Source: an uncultured Fidelibacterota bacterium
GTDB lineage: Bacteria > Fidelibacterota > Marinisomatia > Marinisomatales > Marinisomataceae
Reading direction: 5' to 3'
Length of the DNA: 64,000 nt
Assembly (NCBI GenBank): GCA_902578385.1
Contig: CACHCR010000006.1
Coordinates: forward strand, 1-64,000
Positions within the stretch are counted from its first letter, which is position 1, and every line of letters begins with the position of its first letter. Made by a program: the position numbers and the translations under genes. Under the pieces are notes generated by a model that saw only the letters and a program-made list of their open reading frames with translations, did not search any database and had not been told where the DNA came from. This document shows, in pieces, positions 2 through 31,808 of this stretch.

Positions 2-1348
2 AATATAGTTCAATCTATAGTCTCTTTTGATCCATTAACTGGAGAGGAGCATTCTGATCATCAAGAATTTTATCTATATCCAGCAAGACATTTCATTTCA
101 GATAAAGATAAAAATGACTCAGTTATCAAAGAAATCAGAAAAGATTTAAAAGACAGATTGAAATTTTTTAATGAAAATGAAAAATTTTTAGAAGAACAAA
201 GAATAGGACAAAGAACCAATTTTGACATTGAAATGATTGAAGAAATTGGATATTGTTCTGGAATTGAAAATTATTCAAGGTATTTTGATGGAAGGAAAGA
301 AGGAGAAAGGCCTTTTACCTTAATTGATTTTTTCCCAGATAATTTTTTAACTGTTATTGATGAATCTCATGTTACTTTACCCCAAATACAGGCTATGTAT
401 GGAGGAGATAGGAAGCGAAAAGATAATTTAATTGATTATGGTTTTAGATTGCCTTCAGCATATGATAATAGACCGCTAAAATCAGATGAGTTTGCATCTC
501 TTCAAAATCAAGTTATATATGCTTCAGCGACTCCTTCTTATAGAGAGTTAGAGTTATCTGAAGGTGCTGTTACAGAGTTGATTAATAGACCAACTGGCTT
601 AGTTGATCCAGAATTAATGATAAGACCTTCAGCTGGTCAAATAGATGACCTTATATCGGAAATAAGAATTAGAGCAAGTAAGGATGAAAGGTGTTTAGTA
701 ACAACATTAACAAAAAAAATGGCAGAAGATTTATCTGAATATTTAAGCTCAGTAGGATTAAGGGTAAGGTATTTACACTCAGAGGTAAAAACTATTGAAA
801 GAGTGAAAATCTTGAGAGATTTAAGATTAGGTGATTTTGATGTCTTAGTTGGTATTAATTTACTTCGAGAGGGTCTTGATCTTCCTGAAGTATCTTTAGT
901 TGCAATCCTAGATGCTGACAAAGAAGGTTTTCTTCGTTCAAAAAGTTCATTAGTTCAAACTGCTGGAAGAGCAGCAAGACATGAAGAAGGTAAGGTAATC
1001 TTATATGCTGATAAGATTACTGATTCCATGAAATATTTAATCGATGAGACTGAAAGAAGAAGACAAATTCAACTGGATTATAATAAGAAGAATAATATTA
1101 CACCAAGGACTGTAAAGAAATCAATTGAAGAGATTATGCAATCTACAAGAGTAGCCGAATCTTTCAGAGAAAATGATATTGAAATTAAAAGAGATACTGC
1201 TACAGATAAATTCTTAAATGAAGATAAAAAAATTGTAGTTGAAATGATTAGAGAAGAAATGCTGGAAGCCGCTGAAAATTTAGAATTTGAAAAAGCTGCG
1301 AATTTAAGAGATGAAATGAACAAATTAGAGAAAGAAATTAAGTTATAA
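2..1348 (+). CDS. uvrB: UvrABC system protein B, C-terminal two thirds (5' end outside window)
   Basis: UvrB is the damage-verifying helicase-like subunit of nucleotide excision repair. The frame is open from base 2, beginning with a conserved FDPLTGE segment and then a YPARHF stretch, so the gene starts upstream; the internal TTG at 158 is not its start. Visible are the DESH Walker B-type motif in the IDESHVTLPQ block, the YASATP motif, the INLLREGLDLPEVSLVAILDADKEGF block, the QTAGRAARH motif VI, and a C-terminal UVR domain (KAANLRDEM) that contacts UvrC. About 448 residues are present; family members are usually about 660-680, so the N-terminal Walker A and beta-hairpin region is missing only because of the window edge. 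The next gene follows after 14 bases. Confidence 0.97.
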   Translation, partial: NIVQSIVSFDPLTGEEHSDHQEFYLYPARHFISDKDKNDSVIKEIRKDLKDRLKFFNENEKFLEEQRIGQRTNFDIEMIEEIGYCSGIENYSRYFDGRKEGERPFTLIDFFPDNFLTVIDESHVTLPQIQAMYGGDRKRKDNLIDYGFRLPSAYDNRPLKSDEFASLQNQVIYASATPSYRELELSEGAVTELINRPTGLVDPELMIRPSAGQIDDLISEIRIRASKDERCLVTTLTKKMAEDLSEYLSSVGLRVRYLHSEVKTIERVKILRDLRLGDFDVLVGINLLREGLDLPEVSLVAILDADKEGFLRSKSSLVQTAGRAARHEEGKVILYADKITDSMKYLIDETERRRQIQLDYNKKNNITPRTVKKSIEEIMQSTRVAESFRENDIEIKRDTATDKFLNEDKKIVVEMIREEMLEAAENLEFEKAANLRDEMNKLEKEIKL

Positions 1349-14107: not shown

Positions 14108-14208
14108 GACAGCGAATTTATAACAGCATCAATGTTTATGCAAATCTATTAAAAAATTGATAATAGAATTTTAAAAAATGCTTTAAATTGAAGCTCTTTC
14201 AAGAAATT

Positions 14209-15936
14209 ATGAGTAAAACTATAAAAAAAATTCAATCTTTTTTGAGCTTAAGAAAGCCTTCAAATCAGGATGATGAAAAATTTATTTCTGGAATAGACTC
14301 TCCATATCAAGCAGCTAAATTAAGAAGTGCATCCAAGGATAAGACCGTTGATAAATTCCATTCCCCGGTAAGTTTTTCATGGAAAGCATTTTGGAAATCT
14401 TTTGTTTATGAAAATTTACCTCCAGTTATTTTTTCTCCTTTAGCAGCAATATTTCTTGAAGGTTCATTATCTCGCGCATGGCATGTATCTCAAAATAGAC
14501 AGTTAATTGCGATATCAACAAAACATCATTCTTTAACAACAATTCGTAATAATTGGTTAATAATTTATCCTGCATCTTGGTTAATGAATATTGGATTATT
14601 TTTAGCTCTTTTTTCTGATAAAGAATTAATCCTTAACATTGATCCTTTTCATATGATCTTGGCTTACTTACTTTTATTTTTTAGAAGATTAATCATTGCA
14701 ACTAAGTATGGATATTTTAGACCAGAGGACTTAGAACGTTTGTGTTTACCTGCTCCAGACTGGGATGATAATAAAACTGTTAGAAGATTAATAGCGCAAG
14801 GTTGGATGAGACCTTGGGAATTCCCTGGATTAATTGAAGACGAATTAACTATTGCAATGGATGAAAATGATATTTGTTTGCAAGGAATTCCATTTGAACC
14901 AGGCAAAGAAACAAGAGATAAATTAATTAATGAGTCTAATAATGAGCTTTTCCCATCATCGACAAGCTCAACAAAAGAAACTGAACTTCCTTCGGGCTTC
15001 ATTCTTTATAACATAATTAATTCAGTTTATAGATTACCTGCACTGAAGTATATGCAGCAATTAACTTACTTATGTATGCTTTTATTACCTGTGGCAGCAT
15101 TTTCATCTAAATATTTTTATGGAATGGATTTATTTGGAATTACTCCTCAAGAAAAGATTATTTCAGTGGCTACTCTTTTTGGATTTTTTAATGGTTTCCA
15201 ACTCATGATGTTTGGAATGGTTTGTGCTGCTGATTATGAAAGAAGATATGCTACTTCTAAAAAATTAGGTGAATTAGTATCTTATCCTGGTCTAAAGCTT
15301 TCTTCAGTTTTTAAGAGTTTTTATAAAAGTGAAAAAGACGATAAAATTTTTATTGATTTACAGAAAAGAGTAAATGTCTTTGCGTGGATGAACATGAGAA
15401 ATGTTTTAAGATCTTTTGGAGAAACATATTATTTACGAATTCAAGGTTATACGTCTATTTTAATCTTTTATTCTTTGTTATGTGTTGGAATCTTAAATCT
15501 TATAGTTTGGACAGGGATGAAGCATCATATTTCGACAGTATATGTTATCGGGACAGTTATAACAGCTGTTTCTGTTATTTGTTTATTTGCAATCTCAAAA
15601 GCTATTCAACTTCAATCTCTTAGCGCAAAACATAGAGATTTTATTAGAAATGAACTATTTATTATTGAGGAAGAGATTTGGGAGTTAAAACTTGCTGGTA
15701 AAGGAGAAGAAAGAATTACTGATCTTTCAAGCGCAAGAGCATTATTACAACAAGTTGATGAATCCATTAATTATAAAGAGCTTATCTATAAACCTACTAC
15801 CATTTTTGGATATGCTGCTAATAATGGCGTTATGGGTTCTGTATTAGGTTTAGTATTAACCGGAGTATTGTTTGCTATACAAGGATTTGTTTCAGTTGGA
15901 ATAGTCTATAATTCTTTGGGTTGGTTCATTCCATAA
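14209..15936 (+). CDS. large multi-pass membrane protein of unknown family
   Basis: 575 residues from ATG 14209; a TTG at 14188 would add seven. I do not recognise it. It has a charged cytoplasmic N terminus of about 70 residues, roughly seven to eight hydrophobic segments, and one large soluble loop of about 130 residues (from EDLERLCLPAPDWDDNK to near LPALKYMQQL). A second, Arg/Lys-rich loop (YERRYATSKKLGE...RVNVFAWM) is followed by paired helices and a Gly-rich C-terminal membrane segment. No transporter, kinase or protease motif is evident. It stands alone, with a divergent promoter region of about 100 bases shared with the ppiD-like gene. Base composition matches its neighbours. Confidence 0.75.
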   Translation: MSKTIKKIQSFLSLRKPSNQDDEKFISGIDSPYQAAKLRSASKDKTVDKFHSPVSFSWKAFWKSFVYENLPPVIFSPLAAIFLEGSLSRAWHVSQNRQLIAISTKHHSLTTIRNNWLIIYPASWLMNIGLFLALFSDKELILNIDPFHMILAYLLLFFRRLIIATKYGYFRPEDLERLCLPAPDWDDNKTVRRLIAQGWMRPWEFPGLIEDELTIAMDENDICLQGIPFEPGKETRDKLINESNNELFPSSTSSTKETELPSGFILYNIINSVYRLPALKYMQQLTYLCMLLLPVAAFSSKYFYGMDLFGITPQEKIISVATLFGFFNGFQLMMFGMVCAADYERRYATSKKLGELVSYPGLKLSSVFKSFYKSEKDDKIFIDLQKRVNVFAWMNMRNVLRSFGETYYLRIQGYTSILIFYSLLCVGILNLIVWTGMKHHISTVYVIGTVITAVSVICLFAISKAIQLQSLSAKHRDFIRNELFIIEEEIWELKLAGKGEERITDLSSARALLQQVDESINYKELIYKPTTIFGYAANNGVMGSVLGLVLTGVLFAIQGFVSVGIVYNSLGWFIP

Positions 15937-15980: not shown

Positions 15981-18218
15981 ATGAGATATATATATTTAAC
16001 TATTGGTTTGATATTTGGTTCTATTTTTGCACAGGATAAAATATCTTTAGAAAATGTACTTGATGGTACATTTAGAACTGAATCAATCGGCAGGTATGAT
16101 TGGAAGAATAGTTCAGATGCATATTATTTTTCGAAGAGGTCTGATGAAGGTTTAGATTTTTATGAATATAACCTTGCCTCGAATGATTCTTTAAAAGCTT
16201 TTACGGTTAAAAAAAGTGTTATTAGTAATTTTTCTTACTCTTTTAGCCCTGATCAGACAAAGTTATTACTAAAAAAGAATTCTGTAAAACTATGGAGACA
16301 TTCATCGTATGGTTCATATTATATTTATGATATTATATCAGAATCTTTAACACCTGTTACTAGTGATCCTGATAGTTTAAGAAATGTGAAATTTTCTCCA
16401 GATTCAAACAAAATAGCTTTCGTTCGAAATGATAATAATTTATACCTTTTTAATTTGAATAATAATTTAGAAGAGCAACTTACCTTTGATGGGAGTGAAG
16501 ATATTCTTAATGGTCATTTTGGATGGGTGTATGAAGAAGAGTTTGGTACTTATGATTCATATAAATGGAGTCCAGATAGTAATTATATAGCATTTATTAG
16601 AGAAGACCAAACCTATATTAAGAAATATCCGCTGGTTGACTATGAAGCACAATATCCGGTTGTAAAATACATTAGATACCCAAAAACTGGCGAAGATAAT
16701 CCTATTGTTTCAATTAGTATATTAGACTTAAAAAATAAGGAATATAGAAGTGTTCATTTACCACATTCTTCTCATTATATCCCAGATATTGTTTGGCAAA
16801 CAAATTCTACTAATTTGTATTTCGTAACACTCAATCGAAAACAAAATGATTGGAAACTTTATAAATATGATTTTGCTACAAATAGAGGTGAATTAATTCT
16901 TACAGATTCAAACAACTCTTGGATTGATAAAAAGTCGTTTTTTAGCCCTTCTGAAGATGGAGCTTGGGCTAGTAGAAGAGGATTTAGCTTTGCTATCATG
17001 GAAAGCGGTGAACTTATTTGGATTTCTGAACAAGATGGCTTTTATCATATTTATCGAAATAGACCAGATGGAAGACCAATAAATCAAATTACAAGAGGTG
17101 ATTGGGAAGTAAATAGTATTAATGCAATTGATTCAAAAAATAATACCATTTATTTTTCCGCAAAGAAAGAAACTGAAACAGAAAATCATTTATATTCTGT
17201 AAAATTTAATGGTTCAAGACTTAAGAGGCTTACAAAAGAGAAAGGGTCGCATTCTACAGCTTTTTCGCCAACTTTAAATTATTTTATAAATAATTACTCC
17301 AGTTTTACCGTTCCGCCAAAAACATTTATTAAAGACAAAAATGGTAAAATTGTTAGACTTCTAAAAGACACGGATAAATCTAAATTTGATAAGTATGGAT
17401 TAACCTATCCCCAGTTAATAAATATCTTTACAGATGATGGCACTAGACTAAATGCTTTAATTACTTATCCTCACGATTTTGATCCAATGAAACAGTACCC
17501 AGTAATTTTATACAATTATGGTGGTCCTGGTTCGCAACTAGTAGCAAATAGATGGGGTGCTGGAAATCACACCTTGCATCAATATTTTGCTAGTAGAGAT
17601 TTTATAATATTTTCATTTGATAATAGAGGTACTGGAGGAAGAGGAAAAGCATTTAAAGATTTAGCCTATGGTGATTATGGAAAGTATCTTGTTACTGATC
17701 ATATTGCTGCAGCAAAATACCTTCAAGGATTAACCTATGTTGATGGAGAAAATATTGGAATATGGGGATGGAGTGGTGGAGGTTACTTAACAAATATGTG
17801 TATGACTTTAGCAAGCGATTACTACAAGGCTGGTATTTCTATTGCTCCAAATGTTGAACCTTTATTGTATGATACGATCTGGACAGAAAGATATATGGGT
17901 TTAGTTGAAGAGAACCCTGAAGGTTACAAAAATGCATCTGTTTTGACGCATGTTGATAAAGCAAAAGGCCATTTATTACAAATACATGGTAATGCAGATG
18001 ATAATGTTCATCACCAACATTCTATTAAACTTGCTAAGGCTTATGCTGAGCAAGGCAAAGATATGGAGATGTTTATTTATTCTAATGCCAATCATGGAAT
18101 GTCTAATAACAACTTTTTAAGTGAAGAACATCCTGCAGATGGATGGAAAAATAGATATCATCTGTACAAGAAAATGGCTGATTTTTTCATGGAACACTTA
18201 GTTTCTGATACTTTTTAA
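15981..18218 (+). CDS. exported dipeptidyl-peptidase IV-family serine peptidase (S9B)
   Basis: 745 residues with a signal peptide ending FA before Gln18. The N-terminal part is a DPP-IV-type beta-propeller with repeated FSPD/WSPDS blades and a WVYEEEFG loop, equivalent to the double-Glu motif that binds the substrate amino terminus. The C-terminal alpha/beta hydrolase has catalytic Ser598 in GWSGGG, Asp673 in HGNADDNVH and His705 in NANHG. The enzyme would release N-terminal dipeptides, typically X-Pro or X-Ala, from peptides outside the cytoplasm. It is monocistronic, and its stop overlaps the convergent IDO-like gene by four bases. Exact specificity is unknown. Confidence 0.93.
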   Translation: MRYIYLTIGLIFGSIFAQDKISLENVLDGTFRTESIGRYDWKNSSDAYYFSKRSDEGLDFYEYNLASNDSLKAFTVKKSVISNFSYSFSPDQTKLLLKKNSVKLWRHSSYGSYYIYDIISESLTPVTSDPDSLRNVKFSPDSNKIAFVRNDNNLYLFNLNNNLEEQLTFDGSEDILNGHFGWVYEEEFGTYDSYKWSPDSNYIAFIREDQTYIKKYPLVDYEAQYPVVKYIRYPKTGEDNPIVSISILDLKNKEYRSVHLPHSSHYIPDIVWQTNSTNLYFVTLNRKQNDWKLYKYDFATNRGELILTDSNNSWIDKKSFFSPSEDGAWASRRGFSFAIMESGELIWISEQDGFYHIYRNRPDGRPINQITRGDWEVNSINAIDSKNNTIYFSAKKETETENHLYSVKFNGSRLKRLTKEKGSHSTAFSPTLNYFINNYSSFTVPPKTFIKDKNGKIVRLLKDTDKSKFDKYGLTYPQLINIFTDDGTRLNALITYPHDFDPMKQYPVILYNYGGPGSQLVANRWGAGNHTLHQYFASRDFIIFSFDNRGTGGRGKAFKDLAYGDYGKYLVTDHIAAAKYLQGLTYVDGENIGIWGWSGGGYLTNMCMTLASDYYKAGISIAPNVEPLLYDTIWTERYMGLVEENPEGYKNASVLTHVDKAKGHLLQIHGNADDNVHHQHSIKLAKAYAEQGKDMEMFIYSNANHGMSNNNFLSEEHPADGWKNRYHLYKKMADFFMEHLVSDTF

Positions 18219-19807
18219 TTTTTAGTTTGCATTGCAATTTTTTGAAATTGTTGCATTGCTGTTTCATGATTTGATGTGATATTAATAAGTTTATCTGCCC
18301 AAGGTAAATTCTCATTCTTAACCAAATTTTCCAATCTATCTATACTGTGTGTAAACATCTTAGGAAGGAAAGTAGGTGTTGGAGATCCTCCAGTACCTTT
18401 AGCTTTTGTTTGATTTTGATATGGATCTGGTGCTCTTAATATATAGCTTACTACCATTTTATAATGATCAATTCTATGTTGAATTATCCATCTTACAGCA
18501 CTAGCTAAGATTTTTTTATAATCATTATTTGACTCAATTTTTGAAAAATAATCAGAATTTTGAATAGTATTTCTTGTCCTAACAATCATTGCATGATGCG
18601 CAGGAGGTCTGTATCCAACCCTGAATGATTTTAGTAGCTTAGTAAGCGAATCAACTTCAATATTTTTTGGTAAATCTTCAGAGCTAACATATCCTTTGTC
18701 TAACACTCCTTTAATCATTGCTTGATCAACTATTTTATCTGCTATATATGCATGAGTGTGATCACCTACACCAGTAATTTCATCAGCAATAGGATGATAA
18801 GAGCTATTTGCTCCTGTTTGACCATGTAAATTCGAAAGATATAATCCTTTAGAATCATAATCTTCATTGAATTCTTCTCCACAATTTTCAAAAAATAAAC
18901 CTTTATCTGGATAAATACTTCCTTGATTTCCAAATAGACCTTGAATGAAGATTCTAACTTCTTTGTTATAAAGTAGTGGTTCGCTTACTTTCCACATTGC
19001 ATTAAATAATTGATTTGATTGCTTGGTGGCTAGTTCAATTTTTTCAAGGTTTTCTTTAATATCATTATTTTTTACAGCTAAAAGAGCATTTTCAATCATC
19101 ATATTTGAAGTTCTTTCCATAGCAAGATGGGTCATTCTAAATCCCTGTTCATTTCCATCAAAATCATGAAAAGCTACCAAAGGTTTGATTGATCTGATGT
19201 ATTCAATATTTTTATTTAAGTCATCATAATTATCTAATTCTTCTTCTGGAAGAACTCCAGATCGAAGCACATAATCTGCAGCATACTCAAATTCGGGCTG
19301 TTGACCAGTTATTCTTGAAGACAGCAGAAGTAACCCTGATAATGGCCAAGGAATGAATGCACATGCCTTCTTTTTTCCATTGAAAATAGGTTCAATTTTT
19401 ATACCATTGGCTAGCCATGAAGACCAACATCTCACATTTGCGATTAATTCAGCTGATTCACGTGTTGGATTGGCAATATGATTTTGCACTTCTAAAATAA
19501 ATTTATCCATTAATCCATCATCAATTAATTTTACTTCGTTGAAAAGTGCATTCTTTCCAATTAAACCTGTTTTTGATTTATTGTGCACAGTCATTTCAAG
19601 TGCAATATCTGATAATATATCATATGGTGCTGGAAGCTTTTTTAGAGTTGAGTATGGTAAGGTTGAATTTCTTTGCCAAATTAATTCAGATGTTTTTTGT
19701 ATTAAATCAGCATCAAAATCTAGTCCAAATAAGCTTTCATTAAATTGAATTCCATTTCCAAGGTAGGGAAAATGATTTTCCGTCGAAATTACAATATTAG
19801 ACTTCAT
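18215..19807 (-). CDS. indoleamine 2,3-dioxygenase-superfamily heme protein
   Basis: 530 residues, no signal peptide. The C-terminal part matches IDO point by point: RIFIQGLFGNQ (IDO has RIYLSGWKGNP), YRPPAHHA at 399-406 (MPPAH in IDO), HRIDHYKMVVSYIL at 444-457 (IDO SYHLQIVTKYI), and GTGG at 471-474 in the mobile loop. By this alignment His448 is the proximal heme ligand. The middle also fits: GQQPEFEYAADYVL and EQGFRMTHLAMERT. IDO family members oxidise tryptophan to N-formylkynurenine, but the superfamily also includes PrnB-like enzymes with other indole chemistry, so the substrate is open. It is about 120 residues longer than IDO1. It lies in a minus-strand pair with a TlpA-like protein, overlapping it by 11 bases. 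Confidence 0.78.
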   Translation of the reverse strand: MKSNIVISTENHFPYLGNGIQFNESLFGLDFDADLIQKTSELIWQRNSTLPYSTLKKLPAPYDILSDIALEMTVHNKSKTGLIGKNALFNEVKLIDDGLMDKFILEVQNHIANPTRESAELIANVRCWSSWLANGIKIEPIFNGKKKACAFIPWPLSGLLLLSSRITGQQPEFEYAADYVLRSGVLPEEELDNYDDLNKNIEYIRSIKPLVAFHDFDGNEQGFRMTHLAMERTSNMMIENALLAVKNNDIKENLEKIELATKQSNQLFNAMWKVSEPLLYNKEVRIFIQGLFGNQGSIYPDKGLFFENCGEEFNEDYDSKGLYLSNLHGQTGANSSYHPIADEITGVGDHTHAYIADKIVDQAMIKGVLDKGYVSSEDLPKNIEVDSLTKLLKSFRVGYRPPAHHAMIVRTRNTIQNSDYFSKIESNNDYKKILASAVRWIIQHRIDHYKMVVSYILRAPDPYQNQTKAKGTGGSPTPTFLPKMFTHSIDRLENLVKNENLPWADKLINITSNHETAMQQFQKIAMQTKN

Positions 19808-20429
19808 TATTGCCGATTAAGTTATCGATAAATTTGAAAACAGATTCATCATTCCAAAAAGCAGTTCCTAGATCTTTTACTACTACTTCTCCATCAGAAT
19901 TAATAATAAAAGTTGTAGGAATACCGGAAGTTGCAAAAAATTCATCATCAGTAATAACCTTGAATATTGGAAGTCTTTGAAGATTTTCATCTTGAGGTAT
20001 ATAATTTTTAATAGTTTTTAATTCTTCTCTAGATAAAAATAAGAAAATAATATCTTCTTCATTTTTATATTTTTCATACAGCTCAACCATATAAGGCATT
20101 TCAGCTAAACAAGGATTACACCAAGTTGCCCAATAATTGATAAAAAGATTTTTTCCTTTAAAATTTTGAATAGTGAAAATATTATTCTCAAGATCGGAGA
20201 ATTGTAGCATATTGCTTTCAAAGTCTATTGTTGTGACCTTCATATCTTGGGCAGTTGGGGCTTCAAGTTTAGGAGCTTCAATCACTTCATTTAAATACAT
20301 GATTGATAAGTCTTTATAGTACTCTTTGTACTTTTTTAATTCTTTATTTGTGTCGTTATATTTGTAAGAAAGAAATGACAAAATAATTATTAAAATTATT
20401 ATTATAGAGTATAGTTTTTTTGAGTCCAT
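19797..20429 (-). CDS. TlpA/ResA-like membrane-anchored thiol-disulfide oxidoreductase
   Basis: 210 residues: an N-terminal hydrophobic anchor (about 7-23), a short coiled stretch, then a thioredoxin fold with the redox motif WCNPC (Cys104, Cys107) and a cis-proline segment SGIPTTFII. The predicted location is periplasmic. TlpA/ResA proteins commonly reduce apocytochrome c or other exported thiols. It is the first gene of a two-gene minus-strand unit with the IDO-like gene, whose product appears cytoplasmic, so a direct redox partnership is not obvious. A divergent promoter region of about 50 bases separates it from the gene at 20482. Confidence 0.88.
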   Translation of the reverse strand: MDSKKLYSIIIILIIILSFLSYKYNDTNKELKKYKEYYKDLSIMYLNEVIEAPKLEAPTAQDMKVTTIDFESNMLQFSDLENNIFTIQNFKGKNLFINYWATWCNPCLAEMPYMVELYEKYKNEEDIIFLFLSREELKTIKNYIPQDENLQRLPIFKVITDDEFFATSGIPTTFIINSDGEVVVKDLGTAFWNDESVFKFIDNLIGNNEV

Positions 20430-25417: not shown

Positions 25418-25431
25418 ATATGGAGGAAATT

Positions 25432-25692
25432 ATGAATGAAAAAATATTAAAAAACAGAGATAGAATAGATAATGCTGATGAACAAATCTTTGATTTACTA
25501 TTAGAAAGGTTGGATGCAGTAACAGCCATTGGTCATATAAAAAAGCAAGAAGGTTTACCCGTTCTAGATCAAGAACGAGAAAATGCAATTTATGCTAAAA
25601 TTGATGCCAGGTTCTCATCTGCAGAAGCAGGTTTCTTAAAATCAATTTATCAGTCAATTATCTCAGAATCAAAAAAAGTAGAGGAGCTATAA
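25432..25692 (+). CDS. chorismate mutase, AroQ class
   Basis: An 86-residue helical protein that converts chorismate to prephenate. It aligns with the E. coli chorismate mutase domain without gaps at a constant offset of two through the first 50 residues, keeping the active-site set Arg9, Arg26, Lys37, Asp46, Arg49 and Glu50; Glu84 takes the place of E. coli Gln88, as in yeast. It should therefore be active alone. ATG 25432 is chosen because GGAGGAA lies four bases before it. It is the first gene of the operon and is coupled by TAATG to a class II DAHP synthase, a pair that in Mycobacterium forms a regulatory complex. Confidence 0.93.
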   Translation: MNEKILKNRDRIDNADEQIFDLLLERLDAVTAIGHIKKQEGLPVLDQERENAIYAKIDARFSSAEAGFLKSIYQSIISESKKVEEL

Positions 25693-27032
25693 TGTCAAAG
25701 TGGTCTAAAGATTCTTGGAAAAACTTCAAGATTAAACATATCCCTCAATACAATGACCCAGATCAGCTTGAAAAAGCATTAAAAAAACTAGAAGGATTTC
25801 CACCATTAGTGTTTGCTGGAGAATGTAGAAATTTAAAGCAAGATCTTGCAAAGGCTAGCAAAGGAGATGCCTTTTTAGTTCAGGGTGGAGATTGTGCAGA
25901 AAGCTTTAAGGAATTTAATGCAAATAATATTAGAGATACTTTCAGGGTCATTTTGCAAATGAGTGCTGTTATCACAGCAAAGCTTAAAGTTCCCGTTATT
26001 AAGCTTGGAAGAATTGCAGGACAATTTGCAAAGCCAAGATCTTCTGATTTAGAAACTAAAGATGGAAAAACTTTAAATAGTTATTACGGAGATTCTATTA
26101 ATAGTATTGAATTTTCCGAGGAAAAAAGAGAACCGAATCCTGCACGTTTATTAAGAGCATACTCTCAATCTGCTTCCACTTTAAACCTACTTAGGTCATT
26201 TGCTCAAGGAGGTTTTGCTAACTTGCGAAAAGTGAATTCATGGAATATGGGATTTGTTAAGGCAAGTAAAGAAGGAAAGAAGTATGAAAAAATTGCAGCA
26301 AAAATTAATGAATATTTAGATTTTATGGATGCTGTAGGAGTAAATACATCTACTGTAATAGACTTAAATACCGTTGAGTTTTTTACCAGCCATGAAGGAC
26401 TTCACTTACCATATGAAGCTGCATTAACTCGAGTAGATTCACTAACAAATGAAGTGTATTGTACATCAGCACACTTTATATGGATTGGAGATAGAACGCG
26501 CTTTATTGATAGTGCACACGTAGAATTTTGTAGAGGAATAAGCAATCCAATTGGAATTAAATGTGGTCCTAGTCTTGATCCAGATGAATTAGTTAAAATT
26601 ATTGAAACAATCAATCCAGCAAATGAACCTGGAAAGATTTCATTAATTTTTAGATATGGTGAAGAAAGTATTGATAAACATTTACCAGGACTGGTTGAGA
26701 CTATAACAAAAAATAACAAAAATGTTTTATGGATTTCAGATCCTATGCATGGAAATACTGTAAAGTCTTCATCTGGTTTAAAAACTCGTGATTTTAACTC
26801 TTTGCTTAATGAAACATCGAAAGCTATTAAAATTCTTAAAGACAGAGGATGTCATTTAGGAGGAATTCACTTGGAAATGACAGGTCAAAATGTAACTGAA
26901 TGTACTGGAGGAATTTATAAAGTAAGTGATGATGATTTAAATTCAAGATATCATACTCATTGTGATCCAAGATTAAATGCTAATCAAGCGCTAGAACTCT
27001 CTTTCAATATTGCTGAGGAGTTGCAAGGTTAA
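25692..27032 (+). CDS. aroG: class II 3-deoxy-7-phosphoheptulonate (DAHP) synthase
   Basis: First enzyme of the shikimate pathway, condensing phosphoenolpyruvate and erythrose 4-phosphate. At 446 residues it is the plant/mycobacterial class II type. Visible are FAGECRNL, the metal-ligand Cys68 in VQGGDCAESF, KLGRIAGQFAKPRS, WIGDRTR, SDPMHGNT with a ligand His, GIHLEMTGQNVTECTGG with a ligand Glu, and the terminal DPRLNANQALEL with a ligand Asp. Feedback in this class comes from N-terminal elements and from association with chorismate mutase, which is encoded immediately upstream. Its stop is followed directly by the aroA start. Confidence 0.96.
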   Translation: MSKWSKDSWKNFKIKHIPQYNDPDQLEKALKKLEGFPPLVFAGECRNLKQDLAKASKGDAFLVQGGDCAESFKEFNANNIRDTFRVILQMSAVITAKLKVPVIKLGRIAGQFAKPRSSDLETKDGKTLNSYYGDSINSIEFSEEKREPNPARLLRAYSQSASTLNLLRSFAQGGFANLRKVNSWNMGFVKASKEGKKYEKIAAKINEYLDFMDAVGVNTSTVIDLNTVEFFTSHEGLHLPYEAALTRVDSLTNEVYCTSAHFIWIGDRTRFIDSAHVEFCRGISNPIGIKCGPSLDPDELVKIIETINPANEPGKISLIFRYGEESIDKHLPGLVETITKNNKNVLWISDPMHGNTVKSSSGLKTRDFNSLLNETSKAIKILKDRGCHLGGIHLEMTGQNVTECTGGIYKVSDDDLNSRYHTHCDPRLNANQALELSFNIAEELQG

Positions 27033-28283
27033 ATGCTAGTTCAAGGTGCATTACAACTTCCAGGAGATAAATCTATTTCTCATCGAGCAATTATGCTTTC
27101 AGCTATAGCTGATGGAGTTAGTTGTGTTAGAAATTTAAATGATGGAGCTGATCTTCAGTCAACAATTAATATTTTAAGAGATTGTGGAGCTTCAATTGAG
27201 CAAAAAGAGGATGAGATAATAATAAATGGTAAAAAACTTCATTCTCCATCCAAAGATCTTGATTGTGGCAATTCAGGAACCACTACTAGACTTGTTTCAG
27301 GACTATTATCATCTCAAAAATTAATATTTACATTAACTGGAGATGAATCATTGTCAAAAAGACCAATGAAGCGAATAGTTACACCTTTAGTAGGAATGGG
27401 CTGTAAAATTTCCTCAAATAACGGATTATTGCCTTTGTCAATAGATGCTTCTGATGGTATTACAGCTATAGACTATGATATGACAGTTGCAAGTGCACAA
27501 GTCAAATCATGTATACTTTTTTCAGCTTTAGGAGGAAATAATATATCAATTATTAATGAGATTATTCCGACCAGAAATCATTCAGAAATTATGTTAAAAA
27601 ACATGGGAGTATCAATTGAAAGAGAAGGAAGTAAGATTATAGTTCATCCACTTAAATCAAAGTTAAAGTCGATTGATATTTCTGTACCCTCTGATCCATC
27701 TTCAGCAGCTTTTTTTGCTGCTTTAGCAGTTATTAATAATAATTCAAATTTAAAGTTAACCAATGTTTTACTTAACGAGTCTAGAATTGGATTTGTTGAA
27801 GTTTTAAATCAAATGAATTGTTTAATATCAAAATCAAATGAATCAGTTCACAATGGTGAAAAAGTAGGAGATTTAACTATTAGCTCATCTAACCTTAAAG
27901 CAACAGAAATAAAATCAGAAACTATACCATCAATTATAGATGAAGTACCAATATTAGCGGTTGTAGCGGCTTTTGCAAATGGTACGACAGTTTTTAAAAA
28001 TGTAGAAGAGTTAAAATATAAAGAATGTGATAGATTAAGAGCAATTATACATAATCTTGAAGCATTTGGAATCAAGGCATATGAAAAAAATAATGATTTG
28101 TTTGTCGAGGGAGGAAAGGTAAAAAGAATGCCTAAAATAACTACGTTTGATGATCATAGAATTGCTATGGCATTCACAATTTTAAGCCTTACTTCTTTTA
28201 AAAAATATGAGCTCGATAACAGGTCATGTGTGGATATTTCATTACCAAATTTCTTCAATTACCTAAGTGAGATTACCAAATGA
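27033..28283 (+). CDS. aroA: 3-phosphoshikimate 1-carboxyvinyltransferase (EPSP synthase)
   Basis: Sixth step of the shikimate pathway, adding the enolpyruvyl group of phosphoenolpyruvate to shikimate 3-phosphate. The 416-residue protein begins almost at the first conserved motif, LPGDKSISHRAIMLSAIADG. It also has DCGNSGTTTRLVSGLL, the RPMKRI segment, SAQVKSCILF, DPSSAAFF, DEVPILAV, KECDRL and DDHRIAMAF. The GDKSISHR and GNSGTT blocks contain the substrate-binding Lys and Ser. There is no gap to aroG and a four-base overlap with aroE, consistent with one long transcript. Confidence 0.97.
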   Translation: MLVQGALQLPGDKSISHRAIMLSAIADGVSCVRNLNDGADLQSTINILRDCGASIEQKEDEIIINGKKLHSPSKDLDCGNSGTTTRLVSGLLSSQKLIFTLTGDESLSKRPMKRIVTPLVGMGCKISSNNGLLPLSIDASDGITAIDYDMTVASAQVKSCILFSALGGNNISIINEIIPTRNHSEIMLKNMGVSIEREGSKIIVHPLKSKLKSIDISVPSDPSSAAFFAALAVINNNSNLKLTNVLLNESRIGFVEVLNQMNCLISKSNESVHNGEKVGDLTISSSNLKATEIKSETIPSIIDEVPILAVVAAFANGTTVFKNVEELKYKECDRLRAIIHNLEAFGIKAYEKNNDLFVEGGKVKRMPKITTFDDHRIAMAFTILSLTSFKKYELDNRSCVDISLPNFFNYLSEITK

Positions 28284-29098
28284 AATTTGCAGTTATAGGA
28301 AATCCAATTGAAAAAAGTTTAAGCCCAGAGCTTCATGAAATTCTTTATGAAAAGCTTAATATTTTGAACTGTTCTTTTGAAAAAATTCATATTGAAAATG
28401 ATGAATTAGATAATTTTTTTAACAATGATTTTGATTTATTTAATGGAATTAATGTTACGATACCTTTCAAAAGTGCGGTGGTAAAATTTTTAGATTTTAT
28501 CGACGATGAGGCAAAAATATTAGGTAATATCAATTGTATTTCAAAATCAAATAATATGATTTGTGGATTTAATACTGATAAATATGGTTTTGATATGTTA
28601 TTAAATAAAAATGGTATATCTATTCAGGGAAGTAGTTGTATTGTTCTTGGCGCTGGATCATCTGCCAAAACTGTGGTTAAGTCTTTAATTGATCAAGGAG
28701 CTAATAAGATTGTCATCAAAAATAGATCAATCGATAATGCTCGTGACCTCCTACATTTTGCACATAATCTAGGTTTTAAAAATATAGAATTATTTAATTC
28801 TGATTTTTCAAATTTTGATGTTGCAATAAATACTACTCCAATAGGAATGTATAAAGATGATAAAGATAATTTTTTTGATATTCCCGTTGGTAGAAATACC
28901 TCATTAATAGACCTTATTTATACATCTAAAGAAACTTTGTTCTTGAAAAAATTTGATAAAAGCTCCCAAAAAGTCAATGGTCTTGATATGTTTATTTTTC
29001 AAGCATTGAAGTCTATTGAAATTTGGAGAGAAACTAACTATAATTTGGGTTCACAAATTGAATCTGTGAAAAAACAATTGGAGAAAATAAAATGTTAA
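28280..29098 (+). CDS. aroE: shikimate dehydrogenase
   Basis: Reduces 3-dehydroshikimate to shikimate with NADPH. The 272-residue protein has the N-terminal substrate-binding domain with VIGNPIEKSLSPELHE and NVTIPFKSAV (catalytic Lys), FNTDKYGF, then a Rossmann domain with GAGSSAKTVVKSL, NTTPIGMY and the C-terminal NGLDMFIFQALKSIEIW. Its ATGA start overlaps aroA and it overlaps aroC by seven bases. It is an ordinary member of the family and nothing appears truncated. Confidence 0.96.
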   Translation: MKFAVIGNPIEKSLSPELHEILYEKLNILNCSFEKIHIENDELDNFFNNDFDLFNGINVTIPFKSAVVKFLDFIDDEAKILGNINCISKSNNMICGFNTDKYGFDMLLNKNGISIQGSSCIVLGAGSSAKTVVKSLIDQGANKIVIKNRSIDNARDLLHFAHNLGFKNIELFNSDFSNFDVAINTTPIGMYKDDKDNFFDIPVGRNTSLIDLIYTSKETLFLKKFDKSSQKVNGLDMFIFQALKSIEIWRETNYNLGSQIESVKKQLEKIKC

Positions 29099-30252
29099 AA
29101 AAAATATCATACATGACTGCTGGTGAATCGCATGGAAAAGGTTTGATAGGTATTATTGAAGGAATACCTGCCGGTCTTCAGCTAACTGAAGAATACATTG
29201 CAATTGACCTTTTAAGAAGAATGCAAGGTCATGGTAGAGGAAAAAGAATGAAAATAGAAAAAGATTTTGCAGAAATTTTTTCAGGAGTTCGTCATGAACA
29301 TACTCTTGGTTCTCCAATTTCTCTAATTATCAAAAATTTAGATTGGGTTAACTGGGAAGATAGAATGGCTGTTGGAAAACCTAAAAAAGAACATAAGAAG
29401 GTTACTATGCCTCGTCCTGGACATGCTGATTTAGCTGGTATGATGAAATACGACTTTGATGACATTAGAAATGTATTAGAAAGATCTTCAGCGAGAGAAA
29501 CTGCTATGAGAGTTGCAATAGGTGCAATATGCAGAAAATTACTTGAAGAGGTTGGAATATCTATTGGAAGTAGAGTTTATCAAATTCATGATGTAGTAGA
29601 TTCTGATGAAGTCGATTTATCTTTGACCATGTCAAAATTAAATGATTTAGCCGACAAGTCATCAGTGAGATGCCTTAATAAGGATGCTGAAAATAGAATG
29701 ATTAATGTAATCGATGAAGCAAAAAGTAATGGTGATTCTGTTGGTGGTTCATTTGAAGTTATTGCCAAGGGAATGCCATATGGCCTAGGAAGTTATATAA
29801 ATGCTGATGGGAAGCTTCAAGCAAGGATCACTCAAGCAATGATGTCTGTCAATGCTTTCAAAGGTGTAGAAGTAGGAGCTGGATTTGCTTCATCTGCAGT
29901 ATTTGGTAGTGAGCTTCACGACGAAATTTTATTTGAAAATGAAAAGATTACTCGTTCAAGAAATAATGCTGGAGGAATTGAAGGCGGAATGAGTAATGCT
30001 CAACCTATTCATGTTAAAGTAAGCATGAAACCTATCTCAACTCTTATAAAACCGCTGAGATCAATAGATCTTAACACGATGGAACCTAAGCTTGCGCATA
30101 AAGAAAGAACTGACTCTTGTGCCGTTCCAGCTGCATCTATTATTGGGGAAAGCATGCTTGCAATTGTTCTTGCAGATGCATTGCTTGAAAAATTTGGTGG
30201 AGATAGCATTAAACAGTTAAAAAAACATATTAAAAGCAGTGGAAAATATTAA
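29092..30252 (+). CDS. aroC: chorismate synthase
   Basis: Last common step, converting EPSP to chorismate with reduced FMN as catalytic cofactor. The 386-residue protein has the signature blocks TAGESHGKGLIGIIEGIPAG, MQGHGRGKRMKIE, SGVRHEHTLGSPI, MPRPGHADLAGMMKY, RNVLERSSARETAMRVA and RNNAGGIEGGMSNA. It overlaps aroE by seven bases upstream and aroK by 14 bases downstream. Confidence 0.97.
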   Translation: MLKKISYMTAGESHGKGLIGIIEGIPAGLQLTEEYIAIDLLRRMQGHGRGKRMKIEKDFAEIFSGVRHEHTLGSPISLIIKNLDWVNWEDRMAVGKPKKEHKKVTMPRPGHADLAGMMKYDFDDIRNVLERSSARETAMRVAIGAICRKLLEEVGISIGSRVYQIHDVVDSDEVDLSLTMSKLNDLADKSSVRCLNKDAENRMINVIDEAKSNGDSVGGSFEVIAKGMPYGLGSYINADGKLQARITQAMMSVNAFKGVEVGAGFASSAVFGSELHDEILFENEKITRSRNNAGGIEGGMSNAQPIHVKVSMKPISTLIKPLRSIDLNTMEPKLAHKERTDSCAVPAASIIGESMLAIVLADALLEKFGGDSIKQLKKHIKSSGKY

Positions 30253-30748
30253 TCAACTATACCTTATAGGAATGATGGGTTCTGGAAAGTCTTCGACGGG
30301 AAAAACTCTTTCTTTGATTCTAAATTGGGACTTTATTGATATTGATAATGAAATTTCAAGAACTCATAATTCAACTATAAATGAGCTGTTCTTAGATGGA
30401 GAAAAACGCTTTAGAGAGATAGAGTTTCAAGAGCTTAAAAAGCACTCTTTGAGAAATAAGACTATTTTTGCTGTAGGGGGTGGAGCTGTAACTCATCAAG
30501 ATAGTTATGACATGCTTAGCTCCAAAAATTGCATTTATTTAAAAACATCCAATAGTATTTTATTGGATAGACTTAAGGATGATAATTCTCGACCACTATT
30601 AAACGTGAAAAATAAAAGTGAAGTATTAAACCAAATTATGAATCAAAGAGAGCAAAAGTATGTTGCTTTAAGTAAGAATGAAGTGATTACTGATAACCAG
30701 TCAATTCAAGATAATTGTAATCAAATTATGGAGATAATTAATGGCTAA
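30239..30748 (+). CDS. aroK: shikimate kinase
   Basis: Phosphorylates shikimate at O3 with ATP. The 169-residue P-loop kinase starts at GTG 30239, inside the 3' end of aroC, so that the Walker A motif GMMGSGKS falls at residues 11-18 as in most AroK. DIDNEISRTHNSTINELF (shikimate-binding Asp), the FREIEFQEL Arg-Glu block, the GGGAV loop and the lid RPLLN follow. No ATG gives an acceptable start, which supports GTG. It overlaps aroB by eight bases. Confidence 0.93.
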   Translation: MENINQLYLIGMMGSGKSSTGKTLSLILNWDFIDIDNEISRTHNSTINELFLDGEKRFREIEFQELKKHSLRNKTIFAVGGGAVTHQDSYDMLSSKNCIYLKTSNSILLDRLKDDNSRPLLNVKNKSEVLNQIMNQREQKYVALSKNEVITDNQSIQDNCNQIMEIING

Positions 30749-31808
30749 TAAGGTTAAAGTCGATTTAGGAAACAATAGTTACAATATAACTATGATTGAA
30801 GATTTTAAAGATTCTGTTAAAAGGTTTGCGAGCTCAACTGAATCTCAATGCATGTTAATTACACAAGAGAATATCTTTGATCTTTATAAAAATCAATTTA
30901 ATGATCTATCAAATATTTCAAATGTAAATATTTTTTTGATTGATGAAGGCGAAAAAGCAAAATCATTCGATTCAACCATATCTATTGTAAATGAAATGGC
31001 TGATAAGCGTTTTGATAGATCTTCTTTAGTTTTAGCAATTGGAGGAGGTGTTGTTGGTGATATAGCAGGCTTTGCTGCATCAATTTATATGAGAGGTGTT
31101 AAGTATATTCAATATCCAACAACTTTACTGGCAATGGTAGACTCTTCAATCGGAGGAAAGACAGGAATTAATTTAGAAGATGGTAAAAATTTAGTTGGAA
31201 GAATATATCAGCCCATAGCAGTAGAAATTGATACTAATTTTTTATCAACTTTGCCAAAAAGAGAGTTAAATGCAGCTTTAGCTGAGGTTGTAAAATATGG
31301 ATTTATTTATGATAGAGAGTTCTTTGATTATATAGTCAACAATATCTCTGAGATTAATAATAGAAATCTTGATGTTATTCAAGAAGTGATTACCCAATGT
31401 TGCGAAATAAAAAGTGATATTGTTAGTGAAGATGAAAATGAAGATGAACTTAGAATGATCTTAAATTTTGGGCATACTATTGGTCACGCAATAGAGTCAT
31501 TTACAAAATATGAAGAATTATTACATGGTGAAGCAATTTTTTATGGAATGAAGTGTGCATTGTATTTGTCAAATAAATTTGGAGATTTGAATAATGATGA
31601 TTACAAACAATCTTGTCAATTGTTATCTAAGTTTGATTTACCAAGTCTTAAAATCGATAACAAAGATATTTTTATTAACTTTGTAAAAAATGATAAAAAA
31701 TTTAGAGGAGAAAACATAAGATTTATTTTACTGGATGAAATTGGAAAATCTAGAATTAGCGAAGATATTTCATTTGATCAAATCAAAGAAAGTTTGAGTA
31801 CACTATGA
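30741..31808 (+). CDS. aroB: 3-dehydroquinate synthase
   Basis: Second shikimate step: NAD+- and metal-dependent cyclisation of DAHP to 3-dehydroquinate. The 355-residue protein has IDEGEKAKSFDS, the glycine-rich GGGVVGDIAGFAASIYMRG, PTTLLAMVDSSIGGKTGIN and the metal-ligand segments (LAEVVKYGF; NFGHTIGHAIES; LHGEAI). The length is typical. It is coupled to aroK by an eight-base overlap and to aroQ by ATGA. Confidence 0.97.
   Translation: MANKVKVDLGNNSYNITMIEDFKDSVKRFASSTESQCMLITQENIFDLYKNQFNDLSNISNVNIFLIDEGEKAKSFDSTISIVNEMADKRFDRSSLVLAIGGGVVGDIAGFAASIYMRGVKYIQYPTTLLAMVDSSIGGKTGINLEDGKNLVGRIYQPIAVEIDTNFLSTLPKRELNAALAEVVKYGFIYDREFFDYIVNNISEINNRNLDVIQEVITQCCEIKSDIVSEDENEDELRMILNFGHTIGHAIESFTKYEELLHGEAIFYGMKCALYLSNKFGDLNNDDYKQSCQLLSKFDLPSLKIDNKDIFINFVKNDKKFRGENIRFILLDEIGKSRISEDISFDQIKESLSTL

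Follow-up and report, generated by a model that had tools for sequence, protein, structure and literature searches.

What is an indoleamine 2,3-dioxygenase (IDO) for in a streamlined marine bacterium? The known role of IDO is to open the route through kynurenine to nicotinamide adenine dinucleotide (NAD), and the IDO-like gene studied here, P0001, lies in a stretch of 64,000 nucleotides (the window) from an uncultured Fidelibacterota bacterium (contig CACHCR010000006.1, assembly GCA_902578385.1). Its genome (G000; 946,280 bases in 14 contigs, 75.7% complete) belongs to a genus with genomes of about 1 Mb in the Neomarinimicrobiota (SAR406), the phylum named Fidelibacterota at NCBI. We demonstrate that P0001 and its relatives, here called the long form, are divergent members of the IDO family and constitute a core gene of this genus, from which the kynurenine and NAD enzymes that we searched for are missing. 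The reading towards which we lean is that P0001 is probably a heme-dependent oxygenase of tryptophan or a close indole, representing a divergent IDO subfamily whose product would bypass the kynurenine/NAD pathway.

First, P0001 encodes a protein under purifying selection. The open reading frame (ORF) is intact and lies on the minus strand exactly where the first-pass annotation of the window had placed it (Table 1), and the plus strand of the same interval is crowded with stop codons. Relatives with 79-92% identical proteins come mostly from single-cell and metagenome genomes of Candidatus Marinimicrobia/Neomarinimicrobiota. Across six pairs with relatives, the ratio of nonsynonymous to synonymous divergence (dN/dS; NG86) was about 0.05-0.14, with dN of 0.04-0.13 and dS of 0.52-2.33, the highest dS values being near saturation, and these ratios argue for a constrained protein and against a chance ORF.

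Second, the membership in the IDO superfamily that the first-pass annotation had proposed is borne out by family profile, long-form profile, fold and residue mapping alike, and P0001 is a divergent IDO-family protein. Its residues 191-466 match positions 122-367 of the 412 in the Pfam IDO profile (PF01231; cut-off 26 bits, E 9.5e-12), the only family that it matches in Pfam, and all 14 aligned long-form relatives match PF01231 independently. With sequence profiles, none of the 14 long forms matched any other Pfam heme-oxygenase family up to E 1, those of PrnB and tryptophan 2,3-dioxygenase (TDO) included; P0001 matched no IDO model in NCBIfam and, as a single phmmer query, nothing in the PDB. 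The long-form profile found IDO1 in the PDB (E 1.4e-5 to 3e-4), with the S167H mutant of IDO1 as its best match, and hhalign related the long forms to short IDOs of the same order with a probability of 95.8 (E 8e-9).

Structure prediction extends this kinship over both IDO domains. An AlphaFold2 model based on 12 long forms, one bridge sequence of intermediate type (described below) and four short IDOs (alignment A6) reached a predicted local distance difference test score (pLDDT) of 78.3 and a predicted template modelling score of 0.85. Human IDO1 chains alone made up its best 50 Foldseek matches (best E 1e-9), and VIA-align superposed 355 residues from both domains on IDO1 with a root-mean-square deviation (rmsd) of 3.0 and 17% identity. 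Because the short IDOs were part of A6, we also compared the first AlphaFold2 run, made from 14 close long-form relatives alone, a poor model (pLDDT 61.9) that served solely as a control; it too aligned with IDO1 (Z 18.1, rmsd 4.9, 320 residues), and its best 50 matches were again IDO1 or IDO2. TDO and PrnB chains were absent from the best 50 structural matches of either model, which is uninformative on kinship. As the models align with IDO1 from about residue 41 onwards, the IDO small domain is present in P0001 in diverged form, and the modelled protein has a two-domain IDO fold.

These models also change how the length of the protein is understood. Human IDO1 is, by the numbering of structure chains, 403 residues long, and the surplus of about 120 residues given in the first-pass annotation was close to the actual 127. 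The N-terminal extension of that size which it described is mostly a misreading of the diverged small domain and of scattered insertions: the true extension is about 40 residues, and the rest of the surplus lies in insertions, the largest around residues 350-386, and in a C-terminal tail of about 33 residues. Likewise, its statement that the C-terminal 250 residues alone resemble IDO describes correctly what a single-profile sequence search detects and fails for the fold, which spans residues 41-494.

Third, the long forms have a predicted pocket of IDO type. We mapped its residues through the alignment of the bridge protein with IDO1, A6, the match of the long-form profile to IDO1 and an alignment with four plasmid-borne IDOs; the mapping is unsure at IDO1 positions 126 and 226-228, where the alignments disagree by one residue. 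Equivalents of IDO1 His346 (His448), Arg343 (Arg445), Asp274 (Asp342), Arg231 (Arg285), Phe163 (Phe223) and the GTGG loop (471-474) are kept; His448, Arg445 and Asp342 are invariant across 14 long forms, as are Arg285, His227 and the GTGG loop in the aligned long forms. The family and long-form profiles, the fold and the residue mapping support His448 as the predicted heme ligand, and this residue, the PPAH block (residues 401-404) and the GTGG loop, all picked out by the first-pass annotation, are invariant or nearly so. In IDO1 the substrate carboxylate is held by Arg231 (PMC12921851); in TDO and MarE a distal His forms a bond to the nitrogen of the indole, and MarE uses an Arg to hold the carboxylate (PMC11904535).

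The distal position deserves comment, as Ser167 of IDO1 is replaced by His227 in the long forms. An earlier map of the distal pocket used only human IDO1 and the short IDOs of the order. We considered His227 as a lineage-specific change hinting at new chemistry and dropped this idea: the four plasmid-borne IDOs all have His there, two of them beside kynureninase, so that a distal His is a common prokaryotic IDO feature and no sign of new chemistry. These plasmid-borne proteins (L080-L083, haloarchaeal and other) resemble the long form in the distal His, the Arg and GTGG (4/4) and in a GxTGAQSS loop (2/4), and differ from it in length (372-397 residues) and sequence (21-24% identity). The two haloarchaeal ones, unlike the long form, adjoin kynU and an alpha/beta hydrolase, and the archaeal plasmid IDOs beside kynU have His227, Tyr179, Gly332, Arg285 and GTGG in common with it. 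Human IDO1 (PF01231; 6e46/2d0t), for its part, has the same two domains, proximal His, Arg343/Asp274/Arg231 set and GTGG loop as the long form, which differs in the distal His, the insertion at 350-386 and the lack of any kynurenine-pathway partner found.

PrnB and TDO/MarE belong with the long form to the superfamily of His-ligated heme oxygenases described in the literature, the heme-dependent aromatic oxygenases, and the distal His is a TDO/MarE feature (PMC11904535). The first-pass annotation had pointed to PrnB as a sign that the chemistry might differ, a comparison that the sequences do not support, since no other heme-oxygenase family is matched in Pfam and the pocket is of the archaeal plasmid type found beside kynU. 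We consider it very improbable that P0001 serves biosynthesis, as an oxygenase with PrnB- or MarE-like chemistry that helps to make a small specialised metabolite or a cofactor; the missing kynurenine-pathway genes would fit such a role, and against it stand the lack of any PrnB or TDO match in Pfam and of an adjoining biosynthetic cluster, there being only a two-gene operon between peptidase and YbjQ genes.

An alternative is an ordinary tryptophan 2,3-dioxygenase, whose product, N-formylkynurenine, loses its formyl group either spontaneously or through an enzyme not yet recognised, to be excreted or put to a small need, the insertions being decoration. Each catalytic position examined, the distal His and Tyr179 included, agrees with IDOs linked to the kynurenine pathway, and the IDO fold is complete. 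A test by rescue of yeast BNA2 is described in PMC4191572. We regard the ordinary-dioxygenase explanation as unlikely in view of gene content. Kynurenine formamidase was found in none of 20 genus genomes, kynureninase above its cut-off of 246 bits in none of 20 (two sub-threshold matches scored 17 and 20 bits), and NadA and NadC in 0/24 each. Incompleteness is an unlikely cause, because eight genomes of the genus sample are 92-98% complete. Moreover, a 1-Mb genome with chorismate-pathway genes nearby gains nothing obvious by destroying tryptophan, and the long form is only 21-23% identical to the short IDOs of its own order.

Those short IDOs are part of a different setting. A short canonical IDO (L013-L017) occurs in five genomes from other genera of the order, with formamidase in all five, kynureninase above cut-off in four and as a 162-bit fragment in the fifth, NadC in two and NadA in none; the IDO gene of G068 and that of G012 come immediately after the gene for formamidase. 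The proteins L013-L016, although of the same family as the long form, have Thr at the distal position and 372-390 residues. The same order thus contains a working kynurenine locus, and the long form is without one. The first-pass annotation had observed that no kynurenine-pathway gene adjoins P0001 and that context gave no support to simple tryptophan catabolism; both statements hold for the genus genomes searched, the second more strongly than claimed, and gene content does not bear out a physiological kynurenine-pathway role for the long form. As a separate observation, the NadA and NadC counts suggest that the genus lacks the known routes of de novo NAD synthesis.

Fourth, the long form is a core gene of the window genus. 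PF01231 occurs in 24 of 199 genomes of the phylum, and the long-form profile, run over the 130 genomes of the order, gave 24 matches, namely 23 of the 24 genomes of the genus and G120, from another family (f8). The sole genus genome without it (G178) is 72% complete. We rejected the G120 match as a true occurrence: its contig (C76, L064) carries ten proteins that are 76-96% identical to their counterparts in G006, a member of the genus, and are arranged alike, inside a 2.4-Mb genome of another family, and is most likely misbinned. Beyond the order, one convincing long form appeared among 397 Flavobacteriaceae genomes, in AqS4 (G199), a second match scoring just 18 bits, and in a Bacteroidota sample PF01231 was matched in 2 of 395 genomes, AqS4 and G932. 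Outside Neomarinimicrobiota and Bacteroidota, a single genome-contig scan covered exact P0001 peptide patterns only, without a sensitive profile, so that 'genus-specific' refers to the order and to the samples of 397 and 395. Viral contigs, phage records, plasmid records and PADLOC yielded no long-form relative, and the open-access literature, a search that left subscription papers mostly outside, yielded no paper on IDO in Marinimicrobia/SAR406. The evolution of bacterial IDOs was reportedly treated in a 2011 study.

The AqS4 copy is 81% identical to the long form and nests within the window genus in our tree; we use this nesting alone, since very long branches separate short, bridge and long forms and their order is not to be trusted. 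Its locus (L010:4592-10551) reads sdhC, sdhA, a VOC-family gene, the long-form IDO, a small membrane ORF and sdhB, the sdh names being read from translations. Unless the contig is chimeric, this is an apparent cross-phylum transfer from SAR406 into the core sdh operon of a Flavobacteriaceae metagenome-assembled genome. The IDO-like protein of G932 (L062:1258-2676 and L074; 473 residues, 125 bits to PF01231) is the bridge protein. It resembles the long form in a GQTGA loop, an Arg in the R(I/V)FI block, the distal His and a C-terminal tail, and differs from it in sequence (23-25% identity), in lacking the 350-386 insertion and in its site near a hemin-uptake cluster (HemS/hemin ABC), where it adjoins a beta-lactamase-fold protein.

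Under our preferred reading, P0001 would be a heme protein of the cytoplasm, ligated through His, in which the IDO-type pocket is intact. Ferrous heme on His448 would bind O2, Arg285 and the GTGG loop would hold the substrate carboxylate, and the indole NH would meet His227. Tryptophan or a close derivative would receive one oxygen atom or two at its C2-C3 bond, and the product would be N-formylkynurenine, a cyclised product of monooxygenation or an oxindole. Because the genus lacks the kynurenine and NAD enzymes searched for, this product would feed neither NAD synthesis nor kynureninase-type catabolism and would be used, changed or exported by another route.

Several points weigh against this proposal. 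Heme binding by P0001 is itself a prediction, and heme must come from outside in most genus genomes, given the ferrochelatase count below. The pathway negatives do not extend to Trp dioxygenase (PF03301) and kynurenine monooxygenase, neither of which was searched for in the genus, and deformylation or kynurenine use by enzymes of other families is possible. A pocket so near that of kynureninase-linked archaeal IDOs makes ordinary tryptophan dioxygenation fully possible. Conversely, the substrate may differ from tryptophan: of the 230 residues invariant in 14 long forms, 116 are common to at least one of 8 other IDOs, 26 lie in insertions, and 72, at aligned columns, occur in none of the eight, for example Arg224 beside Phe223.

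The setting of the gene brings in heme from another side. COX1 is present in 21 of 24 genus genomes, which makes heme use by the genus plausible. Ferrochelatase was found in 4/20 despite near-universal COX1, a patchiness of heme synthesis within one genus that agrees with a mention of SAR406 heme auxotrophy in a published study (PMC10335964). P0001 forms a two-gene operon with an upstream gene, which it overlaps by 11 bp, for a TlpA/ResA-like thioredoxin, and this same-strand pair, with gaps of -20 to +5, recurs in all 18 genus genomes with both genes intact on the stretch examined and on the G120 contig. The count includes G160, whose locus has a masked run, via an in-frame ORF at gap 4, and leaves out G064, G087 and G036, where a contig end truncates the gene or leaves its frame open, G597 and G176, and also G178, which has no long form. 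The pairing is weak evidence of joint function, since the whole region is syntenic.

Such a partner hints at heme-protein assembly, and the long form might accordingly be a heme or O2 binder without oxygenase activity (a carrier, buffer or sensor) in heme-auxotrophic cells, as the lack of ferrochelatase in most genus genomes, the bridge relative near HemS/ABC genes and the AqS4 copy between sdhA and sdhB would also allow. We consider this improbable: a mere carrier would not need the invariant substrate-binding residues Arg285, GTGG and His227, the AqS4 copy has no TlpA neighbour, and the contexts number three only.

Downstream of P0001, with a 4-bp overlap, follows a convergent gene for a DPP-IV-type peptidase, and a divergent YbjQ gene flanks the operon on its other side. 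Chorismate-pathway genes (chorismate mutase, shikimate dehydrogenase, chorismate synthase, shikimate kinase and DHQ synthase) lie 5-12 kb off, at 25420-31808, and have no demonstrated link to the long form. A scan for promoters and terminators yielded nothing that bears on our reading. Elsewhere in the window, 14188-15936 encodes a 582-residue protein without a Pfam match that is 93-96% identical in the six relatives that have it at the corresponding position, above most neighbours; L006, L008, L009 and L011 do not show it there.

Table 1. Features of the P0001 locus, in window coordinates.
Feature	Position	Strand	Basis
Long-form IDO-family gene P0001, 530 residues	18215..19807	-	Intact ORF; Pfam IDO 44.8 bits; IDO1 fold match Z 30
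N-terminal strand-rich extension beyond the IDO1 fold	codons 1-40, 19688..19807	-	Predicted strands 2-7, 18-26, 29-32; IDO1 alignment begins at about residue 41
IDO fold, small and large domain	codons 41-494, 18326..19687	-	Model 41..494 against IDO1 15..401
His227, predicted distal-pocket His (IDO1 Ser167 position; TDO/MarE-like)	19127..19129	-	Alignments
Arg285 (IDO1 Arg231, substrate carboxylate)	18953..18955	-	Alignments
Largest insertion relative to short IDOs	codons 350-386, 18650..18760	-	Alignments; helix 360-371 in model
His448, predicted proximal heme ligand (IDO1 His346)	18464..18466	-	Invariant, 11/11 rows of alignment A7
GTGG substrate loop	codons 471-474, 18386..18397	-	Alignment; model pLDDT low at 464-476
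C-terminal helical tail, about 33 residues	codons 497-530, 18218..18319	-	Alignment and model
TlpA/ResA-like thioredoxin, N-terminal membrane anchor (read from sequence), WCNPC motif	19797..20429	-	Redoxin/AhpC-TSA; best PDB match ResA, E 2.8e-20

Finally, we advance as a tentative and rather doubtful extension that a core IDO-fold heme oxygenase of an open-ocean SAR406 genus serves a purpose other than entry into the kynurenine pathway, acting on a new substrate or making a new product, which might be an oxindole or signal derived from tryptophan, and that it is coupled to a membrane thioredoxin. In a streamlined marine lineage the searched steps of the route are absent, whether lost or never acquired, and yet an IDO-family enzyme under strong constraint persists in almost all genomes. 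The short IDOs of its sister genera offer a natural comparison from which to learn what determines the product, and, if the long form is active, it would represent a kynurenine-independent use of the IDO fold in an uncultured ocean lineage.

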